The notes under the pieces were generated by a model that was not told the origin of the DNA, did no database searches, and saw nothing but the letters and a program-made list of their open reading frames with translations. From Bacteroidales bacterium OttesenSCG-928-M11 (GTDB lineage Bacteria; Bacteroidota; Bacteroidia; Bacteroidales; Azobacteroidaceae), in assembly GCA_030265685.1 (NCBI GenBank), contig JAJDGO010000017.1, positions 1 to 32,155 on the forward strand: DNA of 32,155 nucleotides, read 5' to 3'. Every line of letters begins with the position of its first letter. Positions within the stretch are counted from its first letter, which is position 1. The position numbers and the translations under genes are program-made. This document shows, piece by piece, positions 3,001 to 32,074 of the stretch.

Positions 3001-6000
3001 GTGAATAAGCTATGGGCTGCTTGTTCTGTATTTGATGCCTCCTTCCCTTTATACATCAGCACATACTTTGGGGCGCTCAGTTGAGAAGCGTAGTATTCAG
3101 CTATTTCTTTGTTGTTCGTAAAATACAAACCTGGGCCAAACGCTTGATTGCCTTCTCCTGTTCCCATAAAAGAAAGAGAAAACTTATCAAAATTATGTGG
3201 CGATCCGTGCCAAAGGGTCATGAAGCGTTCAGCGGTTTCTTTTCCAAGATGTTTCTCTAGGTAAGATTGCATTGCTTTCTTATCTACAACAACATCTTTA
3301 GCCAATTCCGTTTTCTTCAATTTAGAAATGAGTTTACCGAGTTTAGGCTTGGATATAGGCTTGAATTTTTCAGAGGATTTTTGATACTTTAATTTGGGTT
3401 CCATCAACCCTTCATCTGCAAAACTCTTATAATTATTGATTATGTCTTCGTCTTGTTTTATTTCCAAAACGTCCAACAGTCTTATTCCGGCAGGTTTGAT
3501 ATATTCTTTTAGAAGGCCTATATAATCAGAGTCAAGAGCTCCATTAGAAGCCAGCATAACACACTCTCCGTGCTTTCCTACTTCGTGAATTATTTTTTCC
3601 TTTAGTTCTGAAACGGACAAATTTGGATCAACAAACATATATTTATTAACCCTGAGCGCATTGTCTAAAATAAGTATTTGTATTTTAGGGACAGCTCCAC
3701 GTTTTTGTTCACTTAAAAATTCTGCAACATCTGCGGATGATCGAATCTGTTTCTTTTTATACACGGGAACATAAAGCTTCTGACGATCGAACTGATAAAT
3801 TTTCGGAGCAATCTCTTTCCCTTTTCTCTTGGACTTCTCCCTGATTTGATCATAATGTTCATCAAATTCAACATAGTTACCAGAGTCAAGGTTTATGATT
3901 ACTGATTGCATGGCTTTTATTCCTGATCCTCTAAATGCCTCAACTATATTTTTGTGAACATTTGAGTCTTGACGAGATGGTTTTAAGCTGCCAGATGGGT
4001 GATTGTGAACAAAACAGACTTTTATGGCTCCATATTCTTTAGCAGCGGCAAATAACAATTTCATATCTACTCCAACCTCTGTCGTTCCTCCCGTGCTTGC
4101 ATAATAAACACCATAGCTTCCATCTTCTTTAATCATTACCAGAAATGCGTTTTCCGTAGCTGCGCTTTCAAGATTCTTGAATAGGAATGCTACATCGGAT
4201 GATGACTTAATTTTGGGACGACCCGTTAATGGCGATCCCATAAAAGTCAGATGACCTTGTTCTGTTAGTTGTCTCTCGGAAAAAGTGACATCTCCAACTT
4301 CTTCTGTGTTATATCCAACCTGCTCTCGTAACTCTTTTTCCTCAGAAGTGATCTCCATTTGGCTAACATGATCTACTTCATGTTGCCAGTTAAATTGTCC
4401 TTGTGTTGAGTTGGGTGTCAATAAGACTGGTTGAGGCTCATTTGCGGTTGATTGCTCATCCCAATCAATGCCTCTTTTATCCAGCACTCTTCGAGCCGCC
4501 TGAGTGGCTTCATTATCAGGGTGACCATTGGCTGTTTTGATAAGCGACTCTTCTCTTGTGGGTTTTCTTATTTCTCCTCGAGATACTTTTTTCTGATATT
4601 CTTTTCGGAGTTCCTCTCTTCGCTCATTGTTTTCTCGCATCGCTTCCGAAACACGGGCGATATTCCTCTGTTTGTTTTTATCGTCCTTTATGTTTTTATG
4701 AAGAGCTGGTTCGGCACCAGCCATAAAACTGGCTCCATTTGCAGACAAGTATTCATCCGCAGTCATGACAGGAATATTCTGGCTATTACTTACCCGGTTT
4801 ATTTCGTTGATAATATCTGGAAGATATGCTACTGTATCGTTATGATTTGCTCTATTAGCCTCATACCACTTGTCATAAGACTCTTTCCCAATAAGATCGC
4901 TTAACACTTGTTCGGCTTCCATGTATAGATCACTCTCTTCATTGCTTGAAATTGAATCGTATGCTATACTGCGAAGTTCCTCTTCTGTGTATGGCGTGTT
5001 ATTTTTCTCAAATTCATTACGCAAATCTTCTGTATAATCTTGAAGGATATTTTCAAAGCGATTGAGGAAAGATTGTTTTTGATTCATTGCATAATCAGCA
5101 AAAGGCTTAATCCTCCTACCATCCATATCTGCCCAATCACGGAATGAATCTATATTGGTTTCGGTTATATTACCCAATCCTTGCCATCCCTCTTCATAGT
5201 TGGATAGATAGGCTTCTCTTGCTTCTTCGACAGAATCGAACCCAATTAAGACCTTGTGCTCATCAAAGGATCTATCGATATTAACTTGGTCTACAACAAA
5301 TACTTTTTGACTTTCGGGATTGGGACCTACAAATACATCTATCTGTTCGTTATCCCGGCTTTTAGTCCCCCGGATATATCCATAAGTATGGTTCATGGTT
5401 ACGCTCCACGCATTCCCGTCAGGATCTACACCGGAACGGATAGAGCCTTTAGGTTGTTCGATAGATATATCGAAGCCATGTATCTTTACATGTCCCTTCT
5501 TGTAGTTTCCGGCTTCTTTCTGTGCTTCGGTAGGATTGGTTTCGGTCTCTGCTTCGGCTACCGCAATTTCTTTGGTTACGGTTGTGGTTCTTCCTGTGCC
5601 AGCATCCTCAGCTCCTCCTCTATCGTCGGTCTGTTCTGTTCCGTCCGTATCTTGTTCTCGGCTAATATCATCTCCATCGCTTCCTGATCGTTCTGCTGTG
5701 CTCTCTTGATTATCAACAGCCACATGTGTACTTCCATTCGTTCCATTATCATTTTGTTTTATAGGTTGATATTCTATGTCTAATACTTGCCTGATGGCTT
5801 CTACGAGAGGTTGGGGTGTTTTGTCTGCTTCCTCAAACAAGGTATCTTCTTTTGTACCCTGTACCACATCGTAAAGGTCATTGAAAGTTTGTTGAATGAA
5901 CTTTTGTGTCTGACCTTTATATATTGCCGCTAAGTATAAAGCAAAGTTACTGAATTTTTCAGCAGGAAGATAAGATTCTCCCGAAACATCATCAAAAGTA

Positions 6001-9000
6001 AGCTGACGTTTCCATGCTTCTACTGCACGTAATACCTCTTCTATATTTTTTGCCTTGAAGAAAGGTTCGTAGGCAGATAACTCATTATAGGCAATAATAC
6101 TCTGCTGCAACTCCTGAACCATGCGCTCGGCATTCGGACTGTCATAATCACGGAAAGCAGTTGCAAGGATAGCCTTTTGTGCCTTAGCCGGCATTCTATT
6201 GAACATTTCTTCCAGACTGGTACTACCACCGGAAAATATGCTTTGGTATAGAATACTTTTAAGATCGTTCACGGCTTCCCCTGTGATATTACCTTTACCG
6301 TCAATAGCACTTGCATATTGCGTAGATGAGATAACACCTGCTTGATTCATCCATTGCAAAGTCTTAACTCCATTCTTATCTACCAGTTCGGAGAAAGACA
6401 TTTCTTCATCATGGCTCGACAAGAGGATATTTGCAAAAGAGCGTATCTTGTCGCCCATTTTCTGAATGGCGTTTTTCGGTTTGATACGTTCTATTCCTCC
6501 ACTTTCCGTATCCTGTGCAACGAATTGACCTAATCGGATAGCTTCGTTATCGTCGGCATCAAGCATATTCACGAGAACAGGATTCTTCATTGCTGCAATA
6601 TCCTCTGTGCTTAAACCGAACTCTTCTGCATGATCAAAAAGGTATTGTTTGTATTTCTCTGCTGATTCTTTGTTGGCATCATACATGAATTTGAGTGCAT
6701 CGCTACGGTTATTGCCTTGTATGACTTCTCCCCGGGTATTTACACTCGGAGCTCCAGTATATGCGGTAACGCTTGATGTGATTTCTTCGGGACGTATATT
6801 CTCGGCAATACGTTGGGCAGAAACAATACTTACATCATCTTTCCGGTCTTTGGGTTGTGCTTCATCTAAGAAGAAGGCAGGATTTCGTTGTCCTTGACTG
6901 TGGCTCGGTTGTAACTGTGATGCTTCGATTACAGTTACATGACCTTTCGGCATATCCTTTTCTCCGAACTTAACTTCTACCTCTTTCCCTTTTATCGATT
7001 CAATGGGTTCTTGTCTGTCGATCTTCTCACTATTGGAACGACGGAAGCCACGGGCACGGGCATATTGTGGAGTATCTTTTATCCAATCGGGAACTCCGTT
7101 GAGTGCCTCACGTTCTATGCGTTCTGCTTCTTCACGCTCTATTCGTTCCTGTTCTTCTTGGATGCGTTTTTCCTCGGAGATTCGTTTTGCTTCCTCCCGT
7201 CTTATGGCTTCAGCTTCTTCTTGTCTCCTTTTATTGGTACGAGCAATATTTTTCCAGTGATTGAGTTCTGCTTGGGCTTCGGCAATCATAGCCTTACGTA
7301 TATTTTCAGCCTCTACAAACTCATCAATATCATCGGTGGTTTTCGTTTTGGCTTTCTCGGCTTTCTTCAATGCTGCTTCTTTATTTGCTACCATATTATC
7401 AGCAAATGATTGGGCGGTCGTTTCGTCTTGCGTTTTCTCTACAAGACCGTCCCAAGCGGTTTCTGCATCCACAGCACCAAATATAGGTTTTCCCTTTTCA
7501 TCTGTCGGGATCCGTTCTAATGCGGATAGCTGATGTTGCTCTTCTGCTTCGGGTTCCGGAACCGTTTCTTCGATGATTTCCGTACTGTCGGGGGTTTCTT
7601 CTGTTATTTCTTCCATGACTGGAGCAGCAGGAGCGATAACAATATCTTCTCCGTTCTTATTGATTAGGATAGAATCAAGTTCATCCGGAGTGAAGAGGTT
7701 AATTCTTTTACCATTTATGGCTTGTTCCGTATAAACCTCAATTTGTCCGTCTTCGTTTATCTCGGCTGTAATAGAACCACGTACAGGAGTTCCGTCTTCT
7801 GCTGTTAAGGTAACAATATCATTGAGGATGTATTCCGGTCTGCTTTCTTCGTAAACTGCTTGTTGTTCAAGTTGTACGTTCTGTTCATTCTCAACTGTTC
7901 TTTCTGTCTCGAAACTGTTGAGACGTTGAAGACTGGCCGCTTCGGATGCTGATTGAATTTCTTCCCGAGTCCAATTTTGAGGTATTCCGTCAATTTCTAC
8001 AAGGAATGAATCAGGAATAGGCATTCCGTTTTCATCAACAGCGGGACCTTCAACTGTTAACTCCTTAATATTCTCTCCATCAAGACTGACATTATAAATA
8101 TCTCCGGCATTCATGGGCAATATACCGTCAATGTTATTGGCGGCTTCCTGAGCATATTGTAACTGAATAGCTTCTCGTGCTTCCTGTTTTTGTTGTTCAG
8201 CGTTGATAGGAGATTCAGCAGACAATATGGAATGAGGATCGGTAAATTCTTTTTTTCCTGTTTCTGCATCAATTAGAATAATGCTTTCATCAGAATGCTC
8301 CCGGTCAATCGTTCCATCATCAAACATAGCAAGATTACCACCAATGACATACACCTTTCTATCGTCCTGCTTCATTGTAGCAGTCTGAATAGTTCCGGTA
8401 TCAGGATTGGTATGCGAATCGATCATTGAATTGCTTTGTGCAATACGATCATCTATTCTGTCTCTAATACCTTGCATCATTCCATTATAGAGAGTTTTGG
8501 CATTAGCATAATCTTGAACGATAGACAATTCATTCTCGTTGTACATACCGCTATTCTTCATATCCAATAGCTGTTGTACCGGATTTCCGTCTATAAGATT
8601 GGCAAGTTCTTCTCCTAAAGCCTCAACTGCTCTCTTACGTTGGTATTCGTACATATTCTTCGCATCGTTCATCTCTTGTGGAGAGGAAGCATCATATCCA
8701 TCCAGATAGCTTTCGTTGAGTGCTTGTTCTTCTTCGGATTGTTCGTTGCCTCGTTGTTCGGCAATAGTACCCAGATTAAAGCCTCGTAGCTGCATGCTAT
8801 TCCAAACATAAGCCATCGTAGCTTCTTTTTCTTTCTCTGAGAATTCGCTGTCGTTGAGTAAAGAAGTAATTAGAGTACCTATATCTTCATTGGTCGTATT
8901 GTCTATGGTTTCTCTAAGCGGTTCCCATATTTCAGGAGACAAAATTTCGGTTGCAGCTTTGTCGGCTCTGTTGACTTGATGCTTCATGTTTCCGTATCCG

Positions 9001-10943
9001 GCAGCAGATACCGTGTAACGCCCTGCACCCATTAAACCCATTGAAAGAGCTAACCCTCCCCATATATCTCCGTGAAATTGACCGGAACGCAATAGATTGG
9101 TGCGTTCTGTTAGTGGTTTCCCGTTCTCGTCCCGGACGATATTACCATTCGTATCTACTATGGGTGTTTCCTGATAAGCATCGTCGAGATTGAGTATGGT
9201 TCTCCATAACTGGCCGTAGTATTCTTCCGTTACCTCTCCGAAGTAATCAGAGATACCGAATTTTTCCAACTGTTTTTTGGTTGTGTCTAATATCTTACCG
9301 AAAGAGGAATGATCCGCACGGGCAAGTAAACCGCTCAACCGTTTTCCTCCGAATGTCTCTGCAATTTTCCTAACTCCTAAATCGGGAAGGTGTGCGCCAA
9401 ACATTTCGGAGTAGTTCTCTATAATGGCATTCGCTTCTCCTTGCCATATAGCACTGCCCCATGATTCATGATTGCTGAAATCATAGTTCCCATTTTCATC
9501 AATGATAACATCTCCCAGTTTGCGGTCTATAATATCCGATGTAGTCTTTCCTATTTGTATGGTGTTTGTCATAAGAGGAGCACGAACAAGCAAATCGTCT
9601 GCTGTTGTGCCTAATGCTTTTATTGTCCAATTAGTAGCTTCCTGTCCGAAACCTTTAATACCGTTATTCTTAACATAGGTCTTAAAGCCTTGTTCGGCCA
9701 TTTCTTTGACTACTTCTTCTCCAACAACTTTAGTGGCGACTTTGGACCCACCTTTGCCGAATAGTTTTATTCCCTCGAACCCGCCACCTGTCAATGCGAA
9801 ATCAATCATGAATGGAACCATGTGTCCTGTCATTACGCCAGCACGATTCCAAAAATTAGCGTTGCCACCATAATTGCCTTGTGTTTCCTGATTGAGATAA
9901 GCCTGCTCCATCATTATCTTATCAGCTTCCTCTTCTCTTTCTGAATAGTTGTGTCCGTGTCCCAATAGGGTAGAAGCGTTTGTTATATCAGACATTCCGA
10001 AATCCCAGGTATTTAACTTGCCGACAACACTTCCAACTCCACGCCAAAAACCTACATTTTCGCCTTTTTGACGTGCTTGTTCATCCTTTAAGGTCGAAAT
10101 GCGTTCATCTAATTGCGCTAATGCAGCTTGTAATTTCAGGTACTCGCCATCAACTTGTCTTCCATTAACGGTTGCTGAATTATAGGTATGAATTGCTCCG
10201 CCACTGCCACGAGGAAGATCTCTCCACGAGAAAGAAAGGGATTCTTTATCCAGCTCTTTGCCTCGAATGTTCATCTTCTCTATTATCTTTTCTCGTTGCT
10301 TGTCTGCTTTACGTAATTGACCACCCACAGACATATCGGCTACTTGACGATATTGAGATGAGTTGAAGTCGGCTACTTCTTTAGAGAAAGTGCGTTCTCC
10401 GGTAGGAGTAATGTAGGTTTGTTCAAAATTTCCTGTTTGTGGATTATGTTGGATGGAACCTTTGGCTGTATTACCGTAATTCATTCCTGTTTTACTGCCA
10501 TATTCAAGCATAGTGTCCATACGCTCGTTGAATTGTTTCATTGAGCGTTCGGAATTTTCCTTCATCCTCTGTATTCGGGATAGAGCCTCTTGTCGCTGTT
10601 CCTCTGTCATGGGTGTTCCGCCCTCTTGGGTTGCTTGTACGGGAGCAACAGAAGTTCCTACACTTACGATAGGATCTTTTCCTGTTTGGTTTTCATTTGT
10701 TGCTACCAGTTGCGTTCCGGGTGTTGGAGAAGAGGTAGGTTGTTCTGTCGGTTGTATTACAACTCTATTGGAGAACTCATCGAAAGTACCCAAGTCATTA
10801 AAGCCATATTTGTTCAGAGCATCATAGGCTTTCTTTCTCTTGCCTTCGTCCTGCAATCTATTACTGAACTCATCGGGGGTTCCCAAGTCATTGAACCCCC
10901 GATTTTTCATTGCATCATATAGTTTGCTGATATTGTCGTTCAT
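1..10943 (-). CDS. Giant polyvalent protein (C-terminus beyond window)
   Basis: The frame is open from an ATG at 10943 to base 1 without a stop: at least 3,647 codons. Frame continuity was checked at seven separate motifs. Approximate domains by residue: 1-61 two copies of a GFNDLG..DEFSNR motif; 360-390 and 625-650 hydrophobic stretches; 850-1090 beta-rich repeats; 1180-1290 E/R/K-rich coiled coil; 1345-1500 DdrB/ParB-like (QGNNRSDALKF); 1815-1920 inorganic-pyrophosphatase-like (MNHTYGYIRG); 2240-2355 RadC/JAB with HNHPSG...D (H2313, H2315); 2395-2500 a degenerate JAB copy; 2570-2825 ADP-ribosyltransferase (LWHGSPHNFDKFS, GLYFT); 2830-2950 metallopeptidase HEFGH (H2863, H2867) with a downstream DEA; 3060-3215 kinase-like (SDLHPRNVL, IDD). 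The remaining end resembles large polyvalent-associated domains. Proteins of this kind, known from phages and conjugative elements, are proposed to be delivered with the DNA and to disarm or modify host systems. It follows two probable ejection proteins at 18 bp, which suggests it is itself injected. Its activities are inferred from motifs only. Confidence 0.88.
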   Translation of the reverse strand, partial: MNDNISKLYDAMKNRGFNDLGTPDEFSNRLQDEGKRKKAYDALNKYGFNDLGTFDEFSNRVVIQPTEQPTSSPTPGTQLVATNENQTGKDPIVSVGTSVAPVQATQEGGTPMTEEQRQEALSRIQRMKENSERSMKQFNERMDTMLEYGSKTGMNYGNTAKGSIQHNPQTGNFEQTYITPTGERTFSKEVADFNSSQYRQVADMSVGGQLRKADKQREKIIEKMNIRGKELDKESLSFSWRDLPRGSGGAIHTYNSATVNGRQVDGEYLKLQAALAQLDERISTLKDEQARQKGENVGFWRGVGSVVGKLNTWDFGMSDITNASTLLGHGHNYSEREEEADKIMMEQAYLNQETQGNYGGNANFWNRAGVMTGHMVPFMIDFALTGGGFEGIKLFGKGGSKVATKVVGEEVVKEMAEQGFKTYVKNNGIKGFGQEATNWTIKALGTTADDLLVRAPLMTNTIQIGKTTSDIIDRKLGDVIIDENGNYDFSNHESWGSAIWQGEANAIIENYSEMFGAHLPDLGVRKIAETFGGKRLSGLLARADHSSFGKILDTTKKQLEKFGISDYFGEVTEEYYGQLWRTILNLDDAYQETPIVDTNGNIVRDENGKPLTERTNLLRSGQFHGDIWGGLALSMGLMGAGRYTVSAAGYGNMKHQVNRADKAATEILSPEIWEPLRETIDNTTNEDIGTLITSLLNDSEFSEKEKEATMAYVWNSMQLRGFNLGTIAEQRGNEQSEEEQALNESYLDGYDASSPQEMNDAKNMYEYQRKRAVEALGEELANLIDGNPVQQLLDMKNSGMYNENELSIVQDYANAKTLYNGMMQGIRDRIDDRIAQSNSMIDSHTNPDTGTIQTATMKQDDRKVYVIGGNLAMFDDGTIDREHSDESIILIDAETGKKEFTDPHSILSAESPINAEQQKQEAREAIQLQYAQEAANNIDGILPMNAGDIYNVSLDGENIKELTVEGPAVDENGMPIPDSFLVEIDGIPQNWTREEIQSASEAASLQRLNSFETERTVENEQNVQLEQQAVYEESRPEYILNDIVTLTAEDGTPVRGSITAEINEDGQIEVYTEQAINGKRINLFTPDELDSILINKNGEDIVIAPAAPVMEEITEETPDSTEIIEETVPEPEAEEQHQLSALERIPTDEKGKPIFGAVDAETAWDGLVEKTQDETTAQSFADNMVANKEAALKKAEKAKTKTTDDIDEFVEAENIRKAMIAEAQAELNHWKNIARTNKRRQEEAEAIRREEAKRISEEKRIQEEQERIEREEAERIEREALNGVPDWIKDTPQYARARGFRRSNSEKIDRQEPIESIKGKEVEVKFGEKDMPKGHVTVIEASQLQPSHSQGQRNPAFFLDEAQPKDRKDDVSIVSAQRIAENIRPEEITSSVTAYTGAPSVNTRGEVIQGNNRSDALKFMYDANKESAEKYKQYLFDHAEEFGLSTEDIAAMKNPVLVNMLDADDNEAIRLGQFVAQDTESGGIERIKPKNAIQKMGDKIRSFANILLSSHDEEMSFSELVDKNGVKTLQWMNQAGVISSTQYASAIDGKGNITGEAVNDLKSILYQSIFSGGSTSLEEMFNRMPAKAQKAILATAFRDYDSPNAERMVQELQQSIIAYNELSAYEPFFKAKNIEEVLRAVEAWKRQLTFDDVSGESYLPAEKFSNFALYLAAIYKGQTQKFIQQTFNDLYDVVQGTKEDTLFEEADKTPQPLVEAIRQVLDIEYQPIKQNDNGTNGSTHVAVDNQESTAERSGSDGDDISREQDTDGTEQTDDRGGAEDAGTGRTTTVTKEIAVAEAETETNPTEAQKEAGNYKKGHVKIHGFDISIEQPKGSIRSGVDPDGNAWSVTMNHTYGYIRGTKSRDNEQIDVFVGPNPESQKVFVVDQVNIDRSFDEHKVLIGFDSVEEAREAYLSNYEEGWQGLGNITETNIDSFRDWADMDGRRIKPFADYAMNQKQSFLNRFENILQDYTEDLRNEFEKNNTPYTEEELRSIAYDSISSNEESDLYMEAEQVLSDLIGKESYDKWYEANRANHNDTVAYLPDIINEINRVSNSQNIPVMTADEYLSANGASFMAGAEPALHKNIKDDKNKQRNIARVSEAMRENNERREELRKEYQKKVSRGEIRKPTREESLIKTANGHPDNEATQAARRVLDKRGIDWDEQSTANEPQPVLLTPNSTQGQFNWQHEVDHVSQMEITSEEKELREQVGYNTEEVGDVTFSERQLTEQGHLTFMGSPLTGRPKIKSSSDVAFLFKNLESAATENAFLVMIKEDGSYGVYYASTGGTTEVGVDMKLLFAAAKEYGAIKVCFVHNHPSGSLKPSRQDSNVHKNIVEAFRGSGIKAMQSVIINLDSGNYVEFDEHYDQIREKSKRKGKEIAPKIYQFDRQKLYVPVYKKKQIRSSADVAEFLSEQKRGAVPKIQILILDNALRVNKYMFVDPNLSVSELKEKIIHEVGKHGECVMLASNGALDSDYIGLLKEYIKPAGIRLLDVLEIKQDEDIINNYKSFADEGLMEPKLKYQKSSEKFKPISKPKLGKLISKLKKTELAKDVVVDKKAMQSYLEKHLGKETAERFMTLWHGSPHNFDKFSLSFMGTGEGNQAFGPGLYFTNNKEIAEYYASQLSAPKYVLMYKGKEASNTEQAAHSLFTLHGAESIEDAIRIAEENKNEFKDDSEIQKSYNDIISVLRNSKESDFEEVDVNKGVLYNVDTVDDLNLIEWYGELSPKQKDALIAGIESLPEYNNETGEGIDQQDKAMVIDTIRNSGLDGRQVQGTLEYLLGNGEDATYMEFMRNAGFHGVKYPSDSLSDRDSDSFNYVIFDEEVLDIKDKIRLMSTPSGEIYGFVTPDGTIYLNPDKMNANTPIHEFGHLWNSFIKENNPELYAKGAELIKESEYWSKVNNNPSYSSLSEEQKIDEALAMLIGDKGEAQYGKSDLMTFAGVKAWLHDIWGWIKQKIGISPKNNIEDMTLQDFTKLALSDILGGKKIEKTEKNTNFANNEESGTNTDQSGSEIPLGSTQEELRGMYENTFGTNLASRLREGTGGNSSQLSQHEREDLEKRITRDYAKENDVWVDDFYSLGSPMRGGGNENTLAVNPNNGYIYKANNLMNSNMLVSQLLKQVSAHNLIFPETAYEIEGITGVDFGGNSTPIVEPILKQKYVPNSVEATQQEIDGYMDELGFEKVNNTTFSNGEYIVSDLHPRNVLKDANGNIHVIDDIIRPAQPKVQEPPKMNVGEDLFEYARRVTEWNENKSRNSEEAEIRKQSVEKKETPSRDSAFSERDRVAARESYERMVSSGAYQFQEAVQDSMLGLKKTYQAILEEKTNIADVPGFENAYLAENRMSSVNAAEQRDYYGRFMRPLLEEIGRICGTDKAKRQALEDYMMAKHGLERNQVLAERDAKENDKDVSEYRNRDYAGLTALTGVEDVAEAEAIAEKMVADYESENETDKLWQMINAATGATLAKIYYGGLLSKESYEQISGMYQYYIPLQGFDEKTSDEVYGYMTSNQSPLIGAPIKRAEGRKSRADDPIATIAMMADTAIMKSNRNLMKQKFLNFVLNHPSDLISVSDLWLQYDEVSGEWEPIFPEISPNDSASEVDQKVTDFEEKMKELSENDDKYKRGKDIPNIPYRVINGNLSEHQVLVKRGGSTYV
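10872..10903. other. Perfect 11-bp inverted repeat inside the start of the giant gene
   Basis: ATCGGGGGTTC at 10872-10882 and GAACCCCCGAT at 10893-10903 are exact reverse complements around a 10-base loop. On the plus strand the hairpin is followed by TTTTTC, the form of an intrinsic terminator for transcripts antisense to the giant gene. In the giant gene's own mRNA it covers roughly codons 14-24, close enough to the start to affect translation. The second copy of the protein repeat (codons 40-61) lacks the complementary bases, so the hairpin is not forced by the protein sequence. The structure is directly visible; its role is inferred. Confidence 0.6.
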
Positions 10944-10961
10944 GTCGATATGTTATTTGAT

Positions 10962-11966
10962 TTACCAACCTACGGAAGGAGTTTGTTTGGAAGCAGCTTC
11001 TACCTCCGCGGCAATTTGCGCAGTAGGCTTACGACGATAAGTTGTTTTGGCTCTTCTCCCGGTACCGGTAGTTATTGCCTCGTTTATATCTACTCCATAT
11101 TCGGAAGCATATCCTTCGACTGCCCTGTCATAATCCTGCGTTGTGTCATATGTATGGGTTTCGTCTCCAATCTTTAGACTCGGCTTCTTACTACTATTGC
11201 TTCCTGTCCTATAGCTTTCGGCTCTTGCGGACGATGCACTGGCAGAAGCGCGGGAGGCTTGTCCTGCGGCATTGTTCCTATCGATACGGGATTTCTCGTA
11301 GTCGCCTGCGTATTCTGACTTAATACGTTCCTGTTCGGCTTTGTATTCGGCTTGTGTTATTTGATGCGCTTTCAACTTCTCATTGAGGTCAGCCATCGCA
11401 ATATCCCGCTTCTCTTTCGCTTCTGCTCTACTATCCAGTATAGCATCCCTTTCCAACTGCCTACGCCAATTGCGGTCTGCTCTGTCTGTATCGTCATCCA
11501 TCTTTAATGCTTGCAGATAACTACTCATATACTGGCGTTGATTTGCCTCTCGTTCGGTTTTCAGTTTGTCATAACGCTCTTTTGCCTTTGCCGACATTCC
11601 TTTGCTCGGATCATAAGCATTGGGTGCGCCTTTAGTTGTAAAATACAGATTAGAGAGGGAAGATATGCCATCGCCAATAGCGGCGAATATTGCCTCTCTC
11701 TTTTGTTTCTTACGTTCTTTATCCAAATCTTCCTGAGTGGGAGGTTTGTATGGACTCATCTGCTGAAACATTTGAGAGTATGACATCCGTTGAGGCTGCG
11801 TAGCCGTTGTAGATGATTGTTCAGCCACGGTAGGACCTTGCGACTGTTGTTGTGGAGAAGTGGTTGCAGGAGGTTGTGGTAAATCCGTAGATACCTTTAC
11901 CTCTTCCACTTGTTGGGATTCGGGCAGTTGAGTACCAGTGCCTAATATTTCATCCAGTGTTGCCAT
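10962..11966 (-). CDS. Probable phage virion/ejection-associated coiled-coil protein
   Basis: A 334-residue protein with no enzymatic motif that I recognise. Residues 1-60 are rich in Q, T, S and P and look disordered. The segment MFQQMSPYKPPTQEDLDKER introduces a long charged helical stretch (about 70-240) dense in K, R, E and A, followed by a serine/alanine-rich linker and a short basic C-terminal part (about 260-334). There is no signal peptide; a short hydrophobic patch lies near AIFAAIGDGISSLSNLYF. It starts 2 bp after the stop of the preceding gene and ends 18 bp before the giant gene, so the three are almost certainly co-transcribed. Position between a gp14-like protein and a giant protein resembles the ejection-protein block of podoviruses. 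That is an inference from order and composition, and a scaffold or tail role is also possible. Confidence 0.75.
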   Translation of the reverse strand: MATLDEILGTGTQLPESQQVEEVKVSTDLPQPPATTSPQQQSQGPTVAEQSSTTATQPQRMSYSQMFQQMSPYKPPTQEDLDKERKKQKREAIFAAIGDGISSLSNLYFTTKGAPNAYDPSKGMSAKAKERYDKLKTEREANQRQYMSSYLQALKMDDDTDRADRNWRRQLERDAILDSRAEAKEKRDIAMADLNEKLKAHQITQAEYKAEQERIKSEYAGDYEKSRIDRNNAAGQASRASASASSARAESYRTGSNSSKKPSLKIGDETHTYDTTQDYDRAVEGYASEYGVDINEAITTGTGRRAKTTYRRKPTAQIAAEVEAASKQTPSVGW

Positions 11967-11968
11967 GA

Positions 11969-12460
11969 TTAAAACAGTCCTGCTATATTACTCCCAACTT
12001 GTGCAACTCCTTGTATGGCTTGTGCTGTATTAGCGGCTTTCTGCATTTGCAAGTTGTTAAGCTGCTCCTGAATGTTTGCATCATTTTGTTGATATTTATT
12101 TTCGATAGCATCTTTTCTTCTGTCTGCATTAATAGCGATAGAAGATGTGGCATCTGAGAGAGCTGCGTTGTTAGCTTCCTTTGCTGCCGCTACACTCTCT
12201 TCGGATCCTCCCATTACAGCTTGCGCTCCGGCAGCTTGCTTGTTGCGGTTACGAATACTATTCTCGGTACGAGTTAGTATAGCCTGTGCATCTGCGCGCT
12301 GTGTAGCATCTTCATTGTAACGACGGTCATACCAATCCTGATTCTTCTTGCGTTGTTCATTGAGATTGTTCCTGACTTTCTTCATCGCTTTGGAAGCGGA
12401 GATGCCGCCAAAAATACTTCCGACAGCACCCAGTCCTGCACCTATTAAACTACCAACCAT
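11969..12460 (-). CDS. Small internal virion / DNA-ejection-like protein
   Basis: A 163-residue protein. The N-terminus MVGSLIGAGLGAVGSIFGGI is a glycine-zipper-like hydrophobic helix able to insert in a membrane. It is followed by a long polar, Q/A/N/R-rich helix with probable coiled coil (about 28-140), and the C-terminus returns to a small-residue hydrophobic stretch (AQAIQGVAQVGSNIAGLF). This layout, one amphipathic or membrane-active end plus a long helix, matches T7 gp14-like internal virion proteins and DNA-pilot proteins of small phages, and similar proteins are common in Bacteroidales prophages. It is the first gene of the minus-strand block that continues into the giant protein. The homology claim rests on pattern, not on a search. 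Confidence 0.7.
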   Translation of the reverse strand: MVGSLIGAGLGAVGSIFGGISASKAMKKVRNNLNEQRKKNQDWYDRRYNEDATQRADAQAILTRTENSIRNRNKQAAGAQAVMGGSEESVAAAKEANNAALSDATSSIAINADRRKDAIENKYQQNDANIQEQLNNLQMQKAANTAQAIQGVAQVGSNIAGLF

Positions 12461-12489
12461 ATCTTTGATATTTTAAGTTAAACTTATAA

Positions 12490-12519
12490 TTGAGCGATAA
12501 AGATAAGTAGTTAGCTTTG
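12490..12519 (+). promoter_or_regulatory. Bacteroidales-type promoter for the 12544 gene
   Basis: TAGCTTTG at 12512-12519 fits the -7 consensus TAnnTTTG, and a TTG at 12490-12492 lies 19 bp upstream in the -33 position. The predicted transcript would begin about 12525, giving a leader of only some 20 bases before the ATG at 12544. This also argues against a TTG start at 12517, which would lie upstream of or at the transcription start. Confidence 0.6.
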
Positions 12520-12543
12520 TGCGGTATTTTTATCTTTAACTAC

Positions 12544-12825
12544 ATGCAAGGGAAGAAAACTGGAGGACGGAAAAAGGGTACTCCCAACAAATCTACTATG
12601 TTGGGAAAAAGCTCTATTGTTGAATTGCTGAATGATTACAGTAATAGTGGTCTCATGTCTTCCGACTTTAAAATACTTGATCCCAAAGACAGGCTTTATA
12701 TAGCTGAGAAGCTAATGCAATACGTTATGCCTAAAATGCAATCTACCTCTCTCAACTTCGACGATTCCGAAAAAGGTAAGACAATAGAAGATACACTCTC
12801 TAAACTTGCAGAAGAGGAAACATAA
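12544..12825 (+). CDS. Small basic phage protein with GRKKGTPNK N-terminus
   Basis: A 93-residue protein starting MQGKKTGGRKKGTPNKST, followed by a predicted helical segment (SSIVELLNDYSNSGLMSSDF), then DPKDRLYIAEKLMQYVMPKMQS and an acidic C-terminal tail. Proteins with a basic G-G-R-K-K-G-T-P-N-K start and a following DPKDRL...YV.PK motif are widespread in Bacteroidota phages and phage-like islands. The basic N-terminal part suggests DNA binding, and a small-terminase-like or regulatory role is conceivable, but I do not recognise a defined function. The ATG at 12544 is preferred to an in-frame TTG at 12517 because the promoter lies between and upstream of them. It is the only plus-strand gene in the element part of the window. 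Confidence 0.65.
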   Translation: MQGKKTGGRKKGTPNKSTMLGKSSIVELLNDYSNSGLMSSDFKILDPKDRLYIAEKLMQYVMPKMQSTSLNFDDSEKGKTIEDTLSKLAEEET

Positions 12826-13059
12826 TTCAATTTGTCGTTGAGAATTGCTCCTTAGCTCTACTTTAGATAACAACTCTCCTAAAATCAACAAAAAGCTATG
12901 TCGTTTTTTATGTAGATAAAAAACCTACATAACCTAAAATAAAAACCTAAAAAAACCTACGTTTAAAAGATAAATATAAACATAAAGTAAAAATAAAAGA
13001 TATATCATCTAACGATGATAATATAAAAGAAATAATAGAAAGTCTTTATGTGATATATT
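12826..13059. repeat. AT-rich non-coding segment with AAAAACCTA repeats and inverted repeats
   Basis: No gene is visible in these 234 bases between the convergent 12544 gene and the integrase. The stretch 12918-12960 contains AACCTA four times (near 12922, 12931, 12944 and 12954), three of them preceded by an A-run. ATGTAG at 12910-12915 and CTACAT at 12925-12930 form an inverted repeat overlapping the first copy. Short direct repeats at the end of an integrative element next to the integrase could be recombinase arm sites, excisionase sites or merely AT-rich drift. The repeats are seen; their function is a guess. Confidence 0.45.
12990..13020 (-). terminator. Possible integrase terminator
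   Basis: TATCATC (13003-13009) and GATGATA (13014-13020) form a perfect 7-bp stem with a 4-base loop. Read on the minus strand, the direction of the integrase transcript, the stem is followed by TATCTTTTATTTTT. The stem is short and AT-rich, so efficiency is uncertain. Confidence 0.4.
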
Positions 13060-14298
13060 TCATGTCGTTATTTTATTGTTTTCAGAACAATACTTCAATA
13101 CATAGTCTACTACCTTTTCGTTAGCCTCATCAATCTTCTTGTTGTCTATGTTGATGTAAATATCCGTTACGGTATTACCTCCATGACCCAAAGCAGCCGC
13201 AATCGTGTCTTTAGATATGTCAAGCGACCACGCTATTGTTGCCCATGTGTGGCGTGTCCAGTAGGTGGATAATTTCGGAAATGCAGCTTCTCTGATTTTC
13301 TTTCCGTGCTTTTTTACTTCAACAAAACCGATTTCTTTGAGGTTCTTGTTGAATCGGTGTGCGAAGTCTTTGTAATTCGAATATCTCTCCATGATGTTGA
13401 GTAGGTATGTTTCCCCGGAATACTTGTCAATAATCTTTTGTGTCTCCGGAAGAATCTTGATAGAATACATACGGCCTGTTTTCGAGCGTTTGTATTCAAG
13501 TCGCCCGTTTACGACATCAGTCTTTTTTGCATAGCACAGGTCAATGATGTTTATCCCGATCAGGTAGAATAAAAGCATGAATAAATCCTGGTATTGCTCT
13601 TGGTGTGGCTCAACGGAGTAGTTTTTGAACTTGGATAACTCCCCAATCGTTAATGAGCGTTTTGCTGTCCTTTCATGCTTTATCTTGAACTTTCTGAAAG
13701 GGTAGTGGGTAATTACATCATCGTCGATAGCTTCGTTAAATACTGCCCTTAAATTGCGAAAATGAATAGCACGGCCGTTTATGGATGTAACTGAATTTTC
13801 CAAATGCTTGTCGAATGATTTCAGCCATCCGACTGTAATATCTTCAAATTTGAGCGTGTGAATGTCATCCACGAAGTTGGTTATCTTCTTGAACGTCGAT
13901 TCGTAAAGTTCCCGGGTGCTTTTCTTTGACTTGCTCTGAATGTATTCTATAAACCGTTGCTCAAATAAACCGATTGTTTCTTTCTCTTCTTCCGGATTTA
14001 TACGCTTCATAATTTCTTTCTTGATAGCAGAAGCATTCAATCTACCCAGTCTTTCTAATTGCAAGTTGAGCAGCTCCGTTTCTACATCAAGGGAAAACCG
14101 GGTTAAGTAATTATTCAGTGATTGCTTTCGTGGATGATTAACAACACGATCCTTGTCTTTATCCCATTGTTCGGGAGTCAAGAACACACTGGTAGAGATA
14201 AGTGCAGAAGTTTGTTTGTGGGTAATACCCAGTTTGAGAGGAGAGCTGCCGTCTTTACGCTTACTCCGTTTGTCTAAGTAGAATTTCGTTGTAGCCAT
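13060..14298 (-). CDS. Tyrosine recombinase / phage integrase
   Basis: A 412-residue site-specific recombinase expected to insert and excise the element at tRNA-Pro. The start MATTKFYLDKRSKRKDGSSP is the typical beginning of the arm-binding domain of Bacteroidales integrases; the frame stays open upstream into the tRNA gene, but that extension is not coding. Residues about 1-95 are the arm-type domain, 108-205 the SAM-like core-binding domain, and 215-405 the catalytic domain. Visible catalytic residues are K273 (in SKTG), R349 (TYWTRHTWAT), H372 (LGHGG) and nucleophile Y381 (TDIYI). Two canonical positions differ: the first catalytic arginine is replaced (GINIIDL, N250), and the His of the H-x-x-R box is Tyr (Y346). 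Loss of the first arginine is known from IntDOT of the Bacteroides element CTnDOT, which remains active. Clustered TGCAAA sites lie across its start. Confidence 0.93.
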   Translation of the reverse strand: MATTKFYLDKRSKRKDGSSPLKLGITHKQTSALISTSVFLTPEQWDKDKDRVVNHPRKQSLNNYLTRFSLDVETELLNLQLERLGRLNASAIKKEIMKRINPEEEKETIGLFEQRFIEYIQSKSKKSTRELYESTFKKITNFVDDIHTLKFEDITVGWLKSFDKHLENSVTSINGRAIHFRNLRAVFNEAIDDDVITHYPFRKFKIKHERTAKRSLTIGELSKFKNYSVEPHQEQYQDLFMLLFYLIGINIIDLCYAKKTDVVNGRLEYKRSKTGRMYSIKILPETQKIIDKYSGETYLLNIMERYSNYKDFAHRFNKNLKEIGFVEVKKHGKKIREAAFPKLSTYWTRHTWATIAWSLDISKDTIAAALGHGGNTVTDIYINIDNKKIDEANEKVVDYVLKYCSENNKITT

Positions 14299-14304
14299 GA
14301 TAAA

Positions 14305-14367
14305 TTTGCAGGGATTTTGCAGGTGTTTTTGTGCAAACCAGTTCAAGACTGTGCAAAAATGTGCAAA
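14305..14367. repeat. Cluster of five TTTGCA/TGCAAA sites upstream of the integrase
   Basis: TTTGCA occurs at 14305-14310 and 14316-14321, both extended to TTTGCAGG and 11 bp apart. The reverse orientation TGCAAA occurs at 14332-14337, 14352-14357 and 14362-14367, each as GTGCAAA. Five copies in 63 bases, with one orientation on the integrase side and the other on the tRNA side, sit between the integrase start and the putative crossover site. This is where integrase arm sites, excisionase sites or an operator would be expected. The assignment is inferred from position. Confidence 0.5.
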
Positions 14368-14464
14368 ACTTCCCTTTTTTTTATCGTCGGCAAGCCTGAT
14401 GTTATGTAAAAAACAATACTGACAACCAATCTTAAATGACTGATTGTCAGAAATTTTTGTTTTG

Positions 14465-14500
14465 TCGAGGTACCAGGATTCGAACCTGGGACCCCCTGCT
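14465..14500 (-). other. Putative attachment site (att) in the 3' part of tRNA-Pro
   Basis: The element abuts the 3' half of the tRNA (T-arm and acceptor). Integration into tRNA 3' ends normally duplicates this segment so that the gene stays intact. The tRNA here is complete, consistent with the junction regenerating it. The crossover length cannot be fixed because the other junction lies outside the window. Confidence 0.5.
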
Positions 14501-14539
14501 CCCAAAGCAGGTGCGCTAACCGGACTGCGCTACACCTCG
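14465..14539 (-). tRNA. tRNA-Pro (anticodon UGG)
   Basis: The 75-base sequence folds as a full cloverleaf on the minus strand: acceptor CGAGGTG pairing with TACCTCG (one G-U), D stem GCGC/GCGC, anticodon stem CCTGC/GCAGG with loop TTTGGGA giving anticodon TGG, and T stem CCAGG/CCTGG with loop TTCGAAT. The discriminator is A, and no CCA is encoded. It reads CCN proline codons, chiefly CCA. It is the host gene at the element boundary. Confidence 0.97.
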
Positions 14540-21177: not shown

Positions 21178-21261
21178 AAGTTTTAGTATCTTTTTAAACT
21201 TTTCTGTACAGAAAATACATCAAGTTCTACTATAACTTGGATGAAGTTTTAGTATCTTTTT
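21178..21261 (+). repeat. 22-bp-periodic palindrome array, locus 1
   Basis: Four elements start exactly 22 bp apart: AAGTTTTAGTATCTTTTT at 21178, the perfect palindrome TTTTCTGTACAGAAAA at 21200, AAGTTCTACTATAACTT at 21222 and AAGTTTTAGTATCTTTTT at 21244. The third is an inverted repeat (CAAGTT...AACTTG). The array begins 24 bp after the kinase stop codon. Its unit and period match the array after relA at 31967-32074. It is non-coding. The function is unknown: a protein-binding array or 3'-end signal is possible. Confidence 0.8.
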
Positions 21262-29749: not shown

Positions 29750-31954
29750 ATGAGTCTGCTGAGCAAAGAAGAACAAATAGAATTTGTAAAACAATACCGT
29801 CATTTACTTAAAATGACCGGCGATACGGCTTTTCCTGGCGATACAAATAAGGTTCGTAAATACATAACAAAGGCTATTGAGACAAACGGATACGGCAAAG
29901 ACGTTTTCGGACTAAAAAGACTTCCTCGTACTATTAATACAGCTTTGATAATTGCAGAAGAGATGGGACTCAGAAGAGACTCTATCCTTGCCATACTGTT
30001 AGTAGAACTGGTAACAGATGGTCATTGCAGATTGAAAGATATCGAAACTGATTTCGGAGCAGATACGGCCGGTATTATAAAAGGGCTTATTAAAGTACAC
30101 GAACTTTATGGCAAAAGTGCTGCCATAAACAATGAAAATTTCAGAACACTACTGATTTCTTTTGCAGAAGATTTGCGGGTAATTCTTATTTTAATTGCAG
30201 AACGACTTTATTTAATGCGAATTTATAAAGAGTTAAACCCCGATCACGCCATGCAAGTTGCTACGGAGGCATCTTATCTTTATGCGCCGTTGGCTCATCG
30301 CTTGGGATTGTACAAAATAAAGTCGGAGTTGGAAGATCTTTCCCTTAAAATACAAGATAGAGAAACATATAGTAAGATTGCCAACAAACTAAATGAAACA
30401 AAACGTTCGCGCGATCGCTATATTTCCGAATTTATTGCTCCGGTAGAGAATAAGTTAAAAGAACTAGGATTGAATTTTGATATTAAAGGAAGAACAAAGT
30501 CAATCCATTCGATACGGAATAAACTCCAAAAACAAAAGATAGAATTTGAAGCCATATACGATCTTTTCGCCATCCGGATTATTCTTGATACGGAAAAAGA
30601 GAAAGAAAAAGCAGAATGTTGGCAAGTTTATTCAGTTATTACGGATATGTATCAACCCAATCCGAAACGTTTGAAAGATTGGTTGTCTGTTCCTAAAAGC
30701 AATGGCTACGAATCGCTTCATATAACCGTACTTGGTCCCGAAGAAAAGTGGGTAGAAGTTCAAATACGAAGCCGCCGTATGGATGAAATAGCAGAAAAAG
30801 GATTAGCGGCACACTGGAAATACAAAGGAGTAAAAGATACCGACGGATTAGACAAATGGTTGAGTGGAGTTCGTGAAGTATTGGAGCATAAAGAAGAATC
30901 TCCTACCGAACTTATCCATGATTTTAAGATGGATTTGTACGACGAAGAAATATTTGTCTTTACTCCGAAGGGCGATCTTTTTAAATTACCTCAGGGAGCT
31001 ACCGTTCTCGATTTTGCATTTGCTATTCATACTTCGGTCGGTTCGCGCTGTGTTTCGGCCCGGATTGGTGGGAAAAATGTGCCGATAAGACATAAACTTC
31101 AGAGCGGAGATCAAGTAGAGATATTAACTTCTCCCAATCAAACGCCCAAACAAGATTGGTTAAGTATTGCAATTACTTCGAAAGCGAGGGTGAAAATTAA
31201 ACAATCGCTGAAAGAACAATCGGCTAAACAGGTCGAGTTTGCCAAAGAGTTGCTCCGCCGTCGTTTCAAAAATAGAAAAATAGAAGAAGACGAATCGATC
31301 ATTATGCGTCTGATTCGGAAGAAAGGATATAAAACCGTAACCGAGTTCTATGCCGACATTGCCGACGAACGCTTAGATGTCAATACAGTTATTGATCAAT
31401 ACTTGGAAATGGAGAAGAAAGAACAGGAATTGAACGATCATTCTTCTCAAAGTGTCGAAAACTTTATCCCGCAAAAACAGTCACAAAAGCCCGAAGATAT
31501 ATCCGGTCGGGAAGATGTTTTAGTAATTGATCAAAACTTAACAGGCATTGATTACTCGCTGGCTAAGTGTTGTAATCCTATTTATGGCGATGAAATATTT
31601 GGTTTTGTTTCTTCAAAAGGAATAAAAATACATAGAATGAATTGCCCTAATGCTCCAACTATGTTCAAAAGATACGGATACCGGATCGTTAAATCCCGTT
31701 GGGCGGGCAAAGCAGGAGCCAGTTATCCGGTTACTTTACGTGTTGTTGGCAACGATGATATTGGAATCGTGACCAATATTACCTCCGTTATTTCAAAAGA
31801 AAAAGGAACAATGCTCCGTTCCATAAATGTAGATCCGGGAGATGGGCTTTTTCAAGGAACATTTACCGTAATGCTTAGCGATTCCCAAGCCGCAGATGGA
31901 TTGATTAAAAAGATTAAAACGGTAAAAGGAGTAAAGCAAGTGAGCCGTTTTTAA
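29750..31954 (+). CDS. relA: RelA-type (p)ppGpp synthetase with degenerate hydrolase domain
   Basis: 734 residues, a long RSH protein of the stringent response. The N-terminal domain aligns in order with the HD hydrolase of Rel/SpoT, but its metal ligands are gone: the HD pair of the ALLHDxxED motif is V85-E86 in ILLVELVTD, the early HP motif is replaced (TINTALIIAEE), and the later ADRLHNMRTL is IAERLYLMRIY. The synthetase domain (about 215-360) is intact: YDLFAIRI, R306-L307-K308-D309, NGYESLHITVLGP and WVEVQIRSRRMDEIAEKGLAAHW. TGS is about 395-455, a Cys-containing zinc-finger-like helix region (CCNP, NCPN) lies near 600-640, and an ACT domain covers 660-734. Prediction: it makes but cannot degrade (p)ppGpp, so a separate hydrolase should exist elsewhere. 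It keeps RxKD, which is usual in bifunctional enzymes, rather than the ExDD of gammaproteobacterial RelA. Confidence 0.94.
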   Translation: MSLLSKEEQIEFVKQYRHLLKMTGDTAFPGDTNKVRKYITKAIETNGYGKDVFGLKRLPRTINTALIIAEEMGLRRDSILAILLVELVTDGHCRLKDIETDFGADTAGIIKGLIKVHELYGKSAAINNENFRTLLISFAEDLRVILILIAERLYLMRIYKELNPDHAMQVATEASYLYAPLAHRLGLYKIKSELEDLSLKIQDRETYSKIANKLNETKRSRDRYISEFIAPVENKLKELGLNFDIKGRTKSIHSIRNKLQKQKIEFEAIYDLFAIRIILDTEKEKEKAECWQVYSVITDMYQPNPKRLKDWLSVPKSNGYESLHITVLGPEEKWVEVQIRSRRMDEIAEKGLAAHWKYKGVKDTDGLDKWLSGVREVLEHKEESPTELIHDFKMDLYDEEIFVFTPKGDLFKLPQGATVLDFAFAIHTSVGSRCVSARIGGKNVPIRHKLQSGDQVEILTSPNQTPKQDWLSIAITSKARVKIKQSLKEQSAKQVEFAKELLRRRFKNRKIEEDESIIMRLIRKKGYKTVTEFYADIADERLDVNTVIDQYLEMEKKEQELNDHSSQSVENFIPQKQSQKPEDISGREDVLVIDQNLTGIDYSLAKCCNPIYGDEIFGFVSSKGIKIHRMNCPNAPTMFKRYGYRIVKSRWAGKAGASYPVTLRVVGNDDIGIVTNITSVISKEKGTMLRSINVDPGDGLFQGTFTVMLSDSQAADGLIKKIKTVKGVKQVSRF

Positions 31955-31966
31955 CTTCCTATCGAA

Positions 31967-32074
31967 AAGTTATACAAGAACTTGTACAAAGTTTTACTAC
32001 AACTTGCCCCAAGTTATACAAGAACTTGAGTAAAGTTTTACTATAACTTTACCCAAGTTTTACTATCTTTTTTT
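31967..32074 (+). repeat. 22-bp-periodic palindrome array, locus 2
   Basis: Five units start at 31967, 31989, 32011, 32033 and 32055, exactly 22 bp apart. Units 1 and 3 are AAGTTATACAAGAACTT; units 2 and 4 are AAGTTTTACTA(C/T)AACTT; unit 5 is AAGTTTTACTATCTTTTT and runs into a T-tract. Each of the first four is AAGTT-N7-AACTT plus a 5-bp spacer (GTACA, GCCCC, GAGTA, TACCC). The alternation gives a 44-bp higher-order period. Unit 4 extends to an 8-bp perfect arm pair (GTAAAGTT/AACTTTAC). It begins 12 bp after the relA stop. The role is unknown; the 3'-end position and final T-run allow a terminator or mRNA-end role, and the helical phasing allows cooperative protein binding. Confidence 0.85.

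Follow-up and report, generated by a model that had tools for sequence, protein, structure and literature searches.

REPs are extragenic palindromes, and most are described from intergenic regions whose two genes converge or run in the same direction (PMC3733652). In BIMEs, REPs are reported to be regularly spaced, to alternate in orientation and to act as protein-binding sites (PMC2817692), and DNA gyrase is reported to bind some BIME-2 (PMC6379681). GTAG REPs have a cognate REP-associated tyrosine transposase, and CGTC REPs are said to be without a dedicated one (PMC3733652). Abundant intergenic short tandem sets of TAACTGA heptamers are described in Beggiatoaceae and some Bacteroidetes (PMC4679880). 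Azobacteroides is reported as one of the genera in which palindromes and close inverted repeats are in extreme excess, although within coding sequence (PMC4060949).

The arrays analyzed here resemble REPs and BIMEs in that extragenic palindromes are grouped at many loci. They differ in their exact phase of 22 or 23 bp, with 4–6 units per array in the source genome, in the avoidance of extension into longer hairpins, and in that neither of the two array-rich genomes has a Y1_Tnp match; even chromosomal spacing was measured for the arrays here alone. The TAACTGA sets are contiguous 7-bp direct repeats, mostly just upstream of starts in the described genome, and not phased palindromes. SlmA, Noc and MatP/matS, like the arrays, involve palindromic dimer sites that are spread over the chromosome and not tied to promoters, but their sites are single palindromes and are not known to form phased arrays or an even grid. 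Plasmid iterons and parC/parS-type centromeres likewise consist of protein sites repeated directly at intervals of about two helical turns; these sit beside a rep or par gene at a single locus or a few, whereas the arrays here occupy dozens of loci. The ends of Mu and Tn7 are arrays of ~22-bp transposase sites, and target immunity separates their copies. In contrast, no rve-type transposase was found in either array-rich genome and no shared element ends were seen in the source genome.

LexA sites were considered and set aside: the motifs named for Bacteroidetes differ from the array palindromes, and Bacteroidales are reported to lack both regulator groups (PMC8565304). A CRISPR origin is argued against by 5-bp spacers that follow a pattern. 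A search of open-licence papers returned nothing like phased palindrome arrays, and a 22-bp Porphyromonas repeat, looked for by the term '22-bp' in the main text of PMC5771137, gave no hit there. Of the known kinds tested, REP/BIME elements come closest, and specialists might rather regard the arrays as a 'distant variant' of them; we rank the arrays as a new kind because the defining features of each tested known kind fail or stay open.

Phased palindromes in the window and in the source genome

The window is the whole stretch of DNA that was analyzed, 32,155 nucleotides of Bacteroidales bacterium OttesenSCG-928-M11, and is contig 9 of the source genome (1.48 Mb, 52% complete). The original prediction of five units at an exact 22-bp period after relA, four of them of the form AAGTT-N7-AACTT, was borne out. 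Units 1–4 of array 1 are AAGTT-ATACAAG-AACTT (31967..31983), AAGTT-TTACTAC-AACTT (31989..32005), AAGTT-ATACAAG-AACTT (32011..32027) and AAGTT-TTACTAT-AACTT (32033..32049), all strandless. The fifth, an end unit on the + strand (AAGTT-TTACTAT-CTTTT, 32055..32074), has a right arm that merges with a T-run. The alternation between two types holds for the N7 cores of units 1–4, and Tandem Repeats Finder reports periods of 22 and 44. The upstream neighbor, a RelA/SpoT homologue (29750..31954, + strand), lies outside the system.

The original prediction overlooked another unit type, the constraint on the spacers, the even chromosomal spacing and a second array in the window (21178–21260), which is mixed. 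This array consists of an end-type unit AAGTTTTAGTATCTTTT (21178..21194, +), a unit of the second type TTTTCTGTACAGAAAA (21200..21215, strandless), AAGTT-CTACTAT-AACTT (21222..21238, strandless) and another end-type AAGTTTTAGTATCTTTT (21244..21260, +), in that order and in a single 22-bp register. The kinase-type and Hsp90-type genes that flank it face each other. Rfam at gathering thresholds gave two tRNAs and no other match across six sources.

The first 13 kb of the window are without arrays, and an integrase lies beside a tRNA there: a tyrosine integrase gene (13060–14505) overlaps a tRNA (14465–14539). Across positions 1–13000 the GC content is raised, at 0.37–0.445 in 2-kb steps, and there is no ORF of more than 163 aa before 10.9 kb. 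This region and the adjoining integrase are probably a decayed integrated element.

The original prediction had named a lack of further copies, or their random spacing, as the mark of a local duplication. Copies are abundant and the 22-bp spacing is fixed. Single AAGTT-N7-AACTT units occur 184 times in the source genome vs 9 for the backwards-read control, and the searched-for pattern of two such units at 22 bp occurs 113 times vs 0. In 1.07 Mb, three shuffles in blocks of two bases gave 0 pairs in total vs 89 in the real sequence. The array pattern is not a product of chance. CTGTACAG at 22 bp occurs 34 times in the source genome and 0 times in 37 congeners.

A census of arrays of two or more units of all types, covering 1,069,760 bases (1.07 of 1.48 Mb), found 77 arrays. 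Exactly 22 bp separate the units in 201 of 227 steps; 18 steps are of 21 or 23 bp and 8 take other values. Both unit kinds, AAGTT-N7-AACTT and TTTTCTGTACAGAAAA, share one register, and by content the arrays are AAGTT-type (38), CTGTACAG-type (22), mixed (16) or made of end units only (1). After relaxed extension 68 of the 77 have 4–6 units (4 in 25 arrays, 5 in 32, 6 in 11), and nine fall outside this range.

The spacers do differ in sequence, as predicted (51 distinct among 89, strand-collapsed), but they are constrained. They follow the pattern N-R-N-Y-N, with a purine at position 2 (a pyrimidine at position 4) in 160 of 178 readings on both strands, and their GC content is 60% vs 36% for the genome. 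Among 140 exact units, the N7 core reads X-TACTA-Y or the complement of this in 90 and belongs to the TACAA type in 33. REPs carry a GTAG or CGTC tag at one end, and GTAG is present within some cores. X and Y can be almost any base and are seldom complementary. Among units with a neighbor at 22 bp, core positions 1 and 7 are complementary in 5 of 127 vs 38.6 expected (P = 4e-14 if units are independent, which related units are not). In a wider set they are complementary in 8 of 140 units (31% expected), and among 25 distinct cores in 4, a weaker deficit than in the raw count. The next inner core pairs match composition (115 vs 115.5 expected and 83 vs 83.1), and spacer complementarity is mildly short (18 vs 28.4 expected for positions 1–5; 28 vs 36.7 for positions 2–4).

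Our reading is that longer perfect inverted repeats are selected against while the arms are retained. The short (5-bp) arms and the rarity of their extension tell against a stable hairpin, and the avoidance of extension favors a reader of duplex DNA over one of hairpins. The folding of RNA hints in the opposite direction, with 7 of 10 array strands beating their shuffles at z < -2.5; arrays of palindromes tend to fold better than shuffles.

Random pairs of units agree at 34% of spacer positions and 59% of core positions, and adjacent cores agree at 68%. The closer likeness of neighbors is what a local tandem duplication without function would leave. We nevertheless consider this origin hardly credible in view of constant arms beside variable spacers, the narrow unit number, and the even spacing and the second species with a like layout described below.

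Placement between genes and along the chromosome

Gene positions were analyzed in the first 738 kb (32 AAGTT arrays; 92% of the sequence coding) with our own longest-ORF caller. Every one of the 32 AAGTT arrays is intergenic by these predictions, and so are 23 of 24 CTGTACAG loci. When both neighbors are known, convergent pairs flank 13 of 30 arrays of the AAGTT type, 10 of 22 CTGTACAG loci and, for comparison, 41 of 232 intergenic regions. A T-run end is callable in 16 of the 32 AAGTT arrays with our own motif. Six such arrays lie in same-direction gene pairs, where the T-run points with the genes in 3 cases and against them in 3, and three lie between divergent genes. The orientation bias looked for in these tandem pairs is thus not seen.

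These results bear on the possibility that the arrays act as transcribed RNA, as bidirectional terminators or 3′ stabilizers, and on the structured 3′ end raised by the original prediction, which is weakly supported at most. Such a role would account for the T-run ends, for the excess of convergent pairs, which recurs in a congener, and for the folding scores. It does not account for T-runs that point either way or lie between divergent genes, nor for source-genome units that avoid complementarity at the next pair, and terminators need no ~11-kb interval. Dispersed copies in the congener (below) show no orientation preference, a weak consensus fold and little covariation. On balance an RNA role is quite improbable.

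The 200-bp flanks of 76 arrays gave 7 inter-array matches, a single long one (187 bp) being the only one above 34 bp. The flanks are mostly unrelated, and homology mostly ends at the array.

Along the chromosome the arrays are evenly spaced. The 44 gaps of the source genome have a mean of 11.6 kb and a CV of 0.47; when the observed number of arrays was placed in random intergenic regions of ≥100 bp per segment, the CV was 0.757 ± 0.088, and a value at or below 0.47 was reached in 0 of 5000 trials. Only 4 gaps are shorter than 5 kb (1.2, 2.1, 2.9 and 3.1 kb) vs 14.5 expected. The idea of even spacing came from contig C1, which is itself in the tested data, and a congener (G026, below) provides the independent check. 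Just 1 of 31 CTGTACAG-holding arrays lies within 4 kb of a pure AAGTT array vs 9.2 expected (0 of 5000 trials); these are the 31 of 38 such arrays found in segments with both kinds. In the source genome both unit types thus act as a single set.

Arrays are missing from six segments, three of them of ≥20 kb. In composition, these three long array-less stretches belong to the five that deviate most, and another of the five (L071) has an array. They encode a relaxase and TraG (C34; L083, L183), TraM and ParB (C10; L059), and an integrase and a topoisomerase (C7:1-20000; L191). A small sample thus suggests that arrays are absent from mobile islands, the link being drawn from three stretches and 20 proteins with a mobile-gene scan that covered array-less segments only. 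Efflux genes also occur on the C7 stretch and an ArsP-type permease gene on C10.

Arrays of other sequence in congeners

The two-unit AAGTT pattern at 22 bp was found 0 times in 57 relatives, 33 of them of the same genus. In the congener G026 (2.5 Mb, 99% complete), however, a period scan peaked at 23 and 46 bp. Its arrays are of a TCTACTAAGA type (TCT) and a GTTTCA/TGAAAC type, both unrelated to the source-genome sequences. In 511,719 bases, 26 loci were found, with 0 within predicted genes, a CV of 0.32 over 21 gaps and a minimum gap of 8.6 kb. With the rest of contig C5 the 27 gaps have a mean of 17.1 kb, a minimum of 3.8 kb and a CV of 0.37 vs 0.82 ± 0.12 at random (0 of 5000 trials); loci were called from 23/46-bp autocorrelation, which misses degenerate arrays. 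Convergent pairs flank 9 of 26 loci vs 20 of 124 intergenic regions. A real, ordered, genome-wide system is thus present in two species with unrelated sequences.

The TCT element of G026 is dispersed. At least 40 strong copies, 79–100% identical, were found among 117 first-look candidates, of which 40 were scored, and no match was found in 37 other congeners. Thirty aligned copies are homologous over up to ~500 bp, with one constant and one ragged end. The 4-bp loops between arms (ACTA/TAGT) occur in both orientations, and the left gene is forward for 15 and reverse for 13 of the 30 copies, with no preference. Their consensus fold reaches -17.7 kcal/mol over 232 columns with a covariation term of -0.92, and 2 of 36 pairs are altered on both sides. 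By eye, some copies of the short form finish with terminator-like hairpins of differing sequence; the long form has a conserved non-coding tail of ~200 bp (L111–L140).

All 21 TCT–TCT gaps are of ≥12.8 kb, whereas distances between the two families go down to 3.8, 7.4 and 8.6 kb. The inter-family mean distance was reached by shifted positions in 176 of 5000 trials, and the number of inter-family pairs closer than 8 kb (2 vs 3.7 expected; 848 of 5000) is unremarkable. The spacing in G026 looks like family-specific exclusion, with weak avoidance between families. For 26 TCT copies on contigs little or not used before, the nine gaps are all ≥13.2 kb, a check that is only supportive because low-scoring copies were left out.

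These properties give rise to the main rival explanation, a self-excluding small mobile element whose transposition machinery would bind the phased palindromes and avoid its own copies by target immunity, with even spacing as a by-product of saturation. A dispersed TCT element with long homology and one constant and one ragged end, an orientation to genes that is not fixed, TCT copies that keep apart while the other family comes closer, and a patchy occurrence among congeners (below) are all as expected for such an element. The source genome fits it poorly: homology mostly halts at the array and shared ends were not seen among 76 arrays, the arrays are not plain copies of one another (agreement of random pairs, above), and two unrelated unit types exclude each other. 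The deficit in core complementarity and the narrow array size are unexpected for a passive repeat. The transposase classes covered, rve (PF00665) and Y1 (Y1_Tnp), gave 0 matches both in the source genome (52% complete) and in G026 (99% complete), although PF00665 matched in 6 of 14 control genomes and Y1_Tnp scored above its cut-off in 16 of 38 genomes of the genus. We therefore consider a mobile element rather unlikely as the explanation.

Other congeners gave fewer loci. G060 has five, each with 4–7 exact copies of TTTCAGWCTGAAA at 42 bp and, by eye, a second palindrome halfway between copies. G016 has one 41-bp array and one or two weak further loci. G019 has a single 23-bp array (L164:211-299) with, by eye, the paired arm changes CACTCG/CGAGTG and CAACACG/CGTGTTG; such paired changes are unlike the source-genome units. 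In 14 of 18 sampled congeners (~20–69 kb each) there was no clear single-period signal. Scattered hits exceeded the shuffled control in several genomes, which shows that this control is not strict enough, and a signal was therefore called only from a peak at one period. Downstream of relA (≤330 bp), no such array was seen by eye in 29 congeners, one of these loci spanning 47 bp only. The trait is patchy among congeners, or elsewhere too diverged for the scan. Simple repeats of 7, 8 and 14 bp were seen in several congeners (L147, L163, L164).

Beyond the genus, the exact two-unit AAGTT pattern occurs in 5 stretches of a genome collection, from which near records of the source genome were possibly excluded, and in 1 viral contig. 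By eye, each of these (L010–L014, L085) has short 22-bp repeats, palindromic or tandem, at one place. Two CTGTACAG units at 22 bp occur in 12 viral contigs (L219–L230). No plasmid record similar to the G026 element and no phage record similar to the window array was found.

A putative reader of the arrays and its possible role

The arrays have a fixed phase, a narrow size, a constrained sequence, a place between genes and an even spacing along the chromosome. The explanation that we favor, at a little short of an even chance, is that they are phased sites for a putative dimeric protein that organizes the chromosome. Each unit would be the site of one dimer of this DNA-binding protein, which probably oligomerizes. 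About five dimers could then sit side by side, one per 22 bp (about two helical turns), and form a nucleoprotein block of ~110 bp. Such blocks, placed between genes about every 11 kb of core chromosome, would have an architectural function, such as anchoring or delimiting supercoiled loops, and G026 would run a like system with other sequences at 23 bp.

The side-by-side arrangement is suggested by (i) two-turn palindromes, (ii) a narrow unit number, (iii) constant arms with constrained spacers and (iv) the avoidance of longer hairpins. The architectural role is suggested by the even spacing, the absence from three stretches with mobile-element genes and the indifference to gene direction. The original prediction is thus partly supported: its array of sites for a dimeric protein is the best fit to the data, and no protein was found. 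A ParB/Noc-type paralogue did not appear, since G026, as most congeners, has a single HTH_ParB match, which also sets its arrays apart from a Noc-type system. The source genome (52% complete) has one, on array-less contig C10. A ParB DNA-binding domain occurs in 34 of 38 genomes, with none in G003 and G022 (1.0–1.2 Mb, 99% complete).

Intergenic palindromic arrays of ~110 bp about 10 kb apart would also be expected if the arrays were functional analogues of BIME-2, with strong sites for DNA gyrase that set supercoil domains. Gyrase is reported to prefer BIME-2 and to read a ~130-bp motif in whose flanks GC content varies with a 10.75-bp rhythm (PMC6379681). In AAGTT units the amplitude of the GC rhythm is 3.82 at 3.14 bp and 2.23 at 5.5 bp, but only 1.07 at 11 bp, and in G026 the 23-bp period does not imply an 11-bp rhythm. 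The conserved arms suggest a sequence-specific reader, and gyrase is, to our knowledge, not known as one. We regard gyrase sites as very improbable.

A broader and still more tentative proposal can be made for the lineage. These Bacteroidales may mark their chromosome with a near-regular grid of phased palindrome arrays (one per 11–17 kb). The putative reader would be an oligomeric protein that evolves fast and sets loops, and sequence and period (22, 23, perhaps 20.5–21 bp) would vary between species while the architecture stays constant.

Bacterial chromosomes are commonly described as consisting of supercoiled domains of ~10 kb, and we know of no fixed, sequence-encoded, evenly spaced domain-boundary element. 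If the arrays are boundary elements, domain borders would be readable from sequence, and the protein would be recoverable with a 110-bp bait. If instead a mobile element spaces itself, the layout of an entire chromosome would be shaped by self-exclusion.
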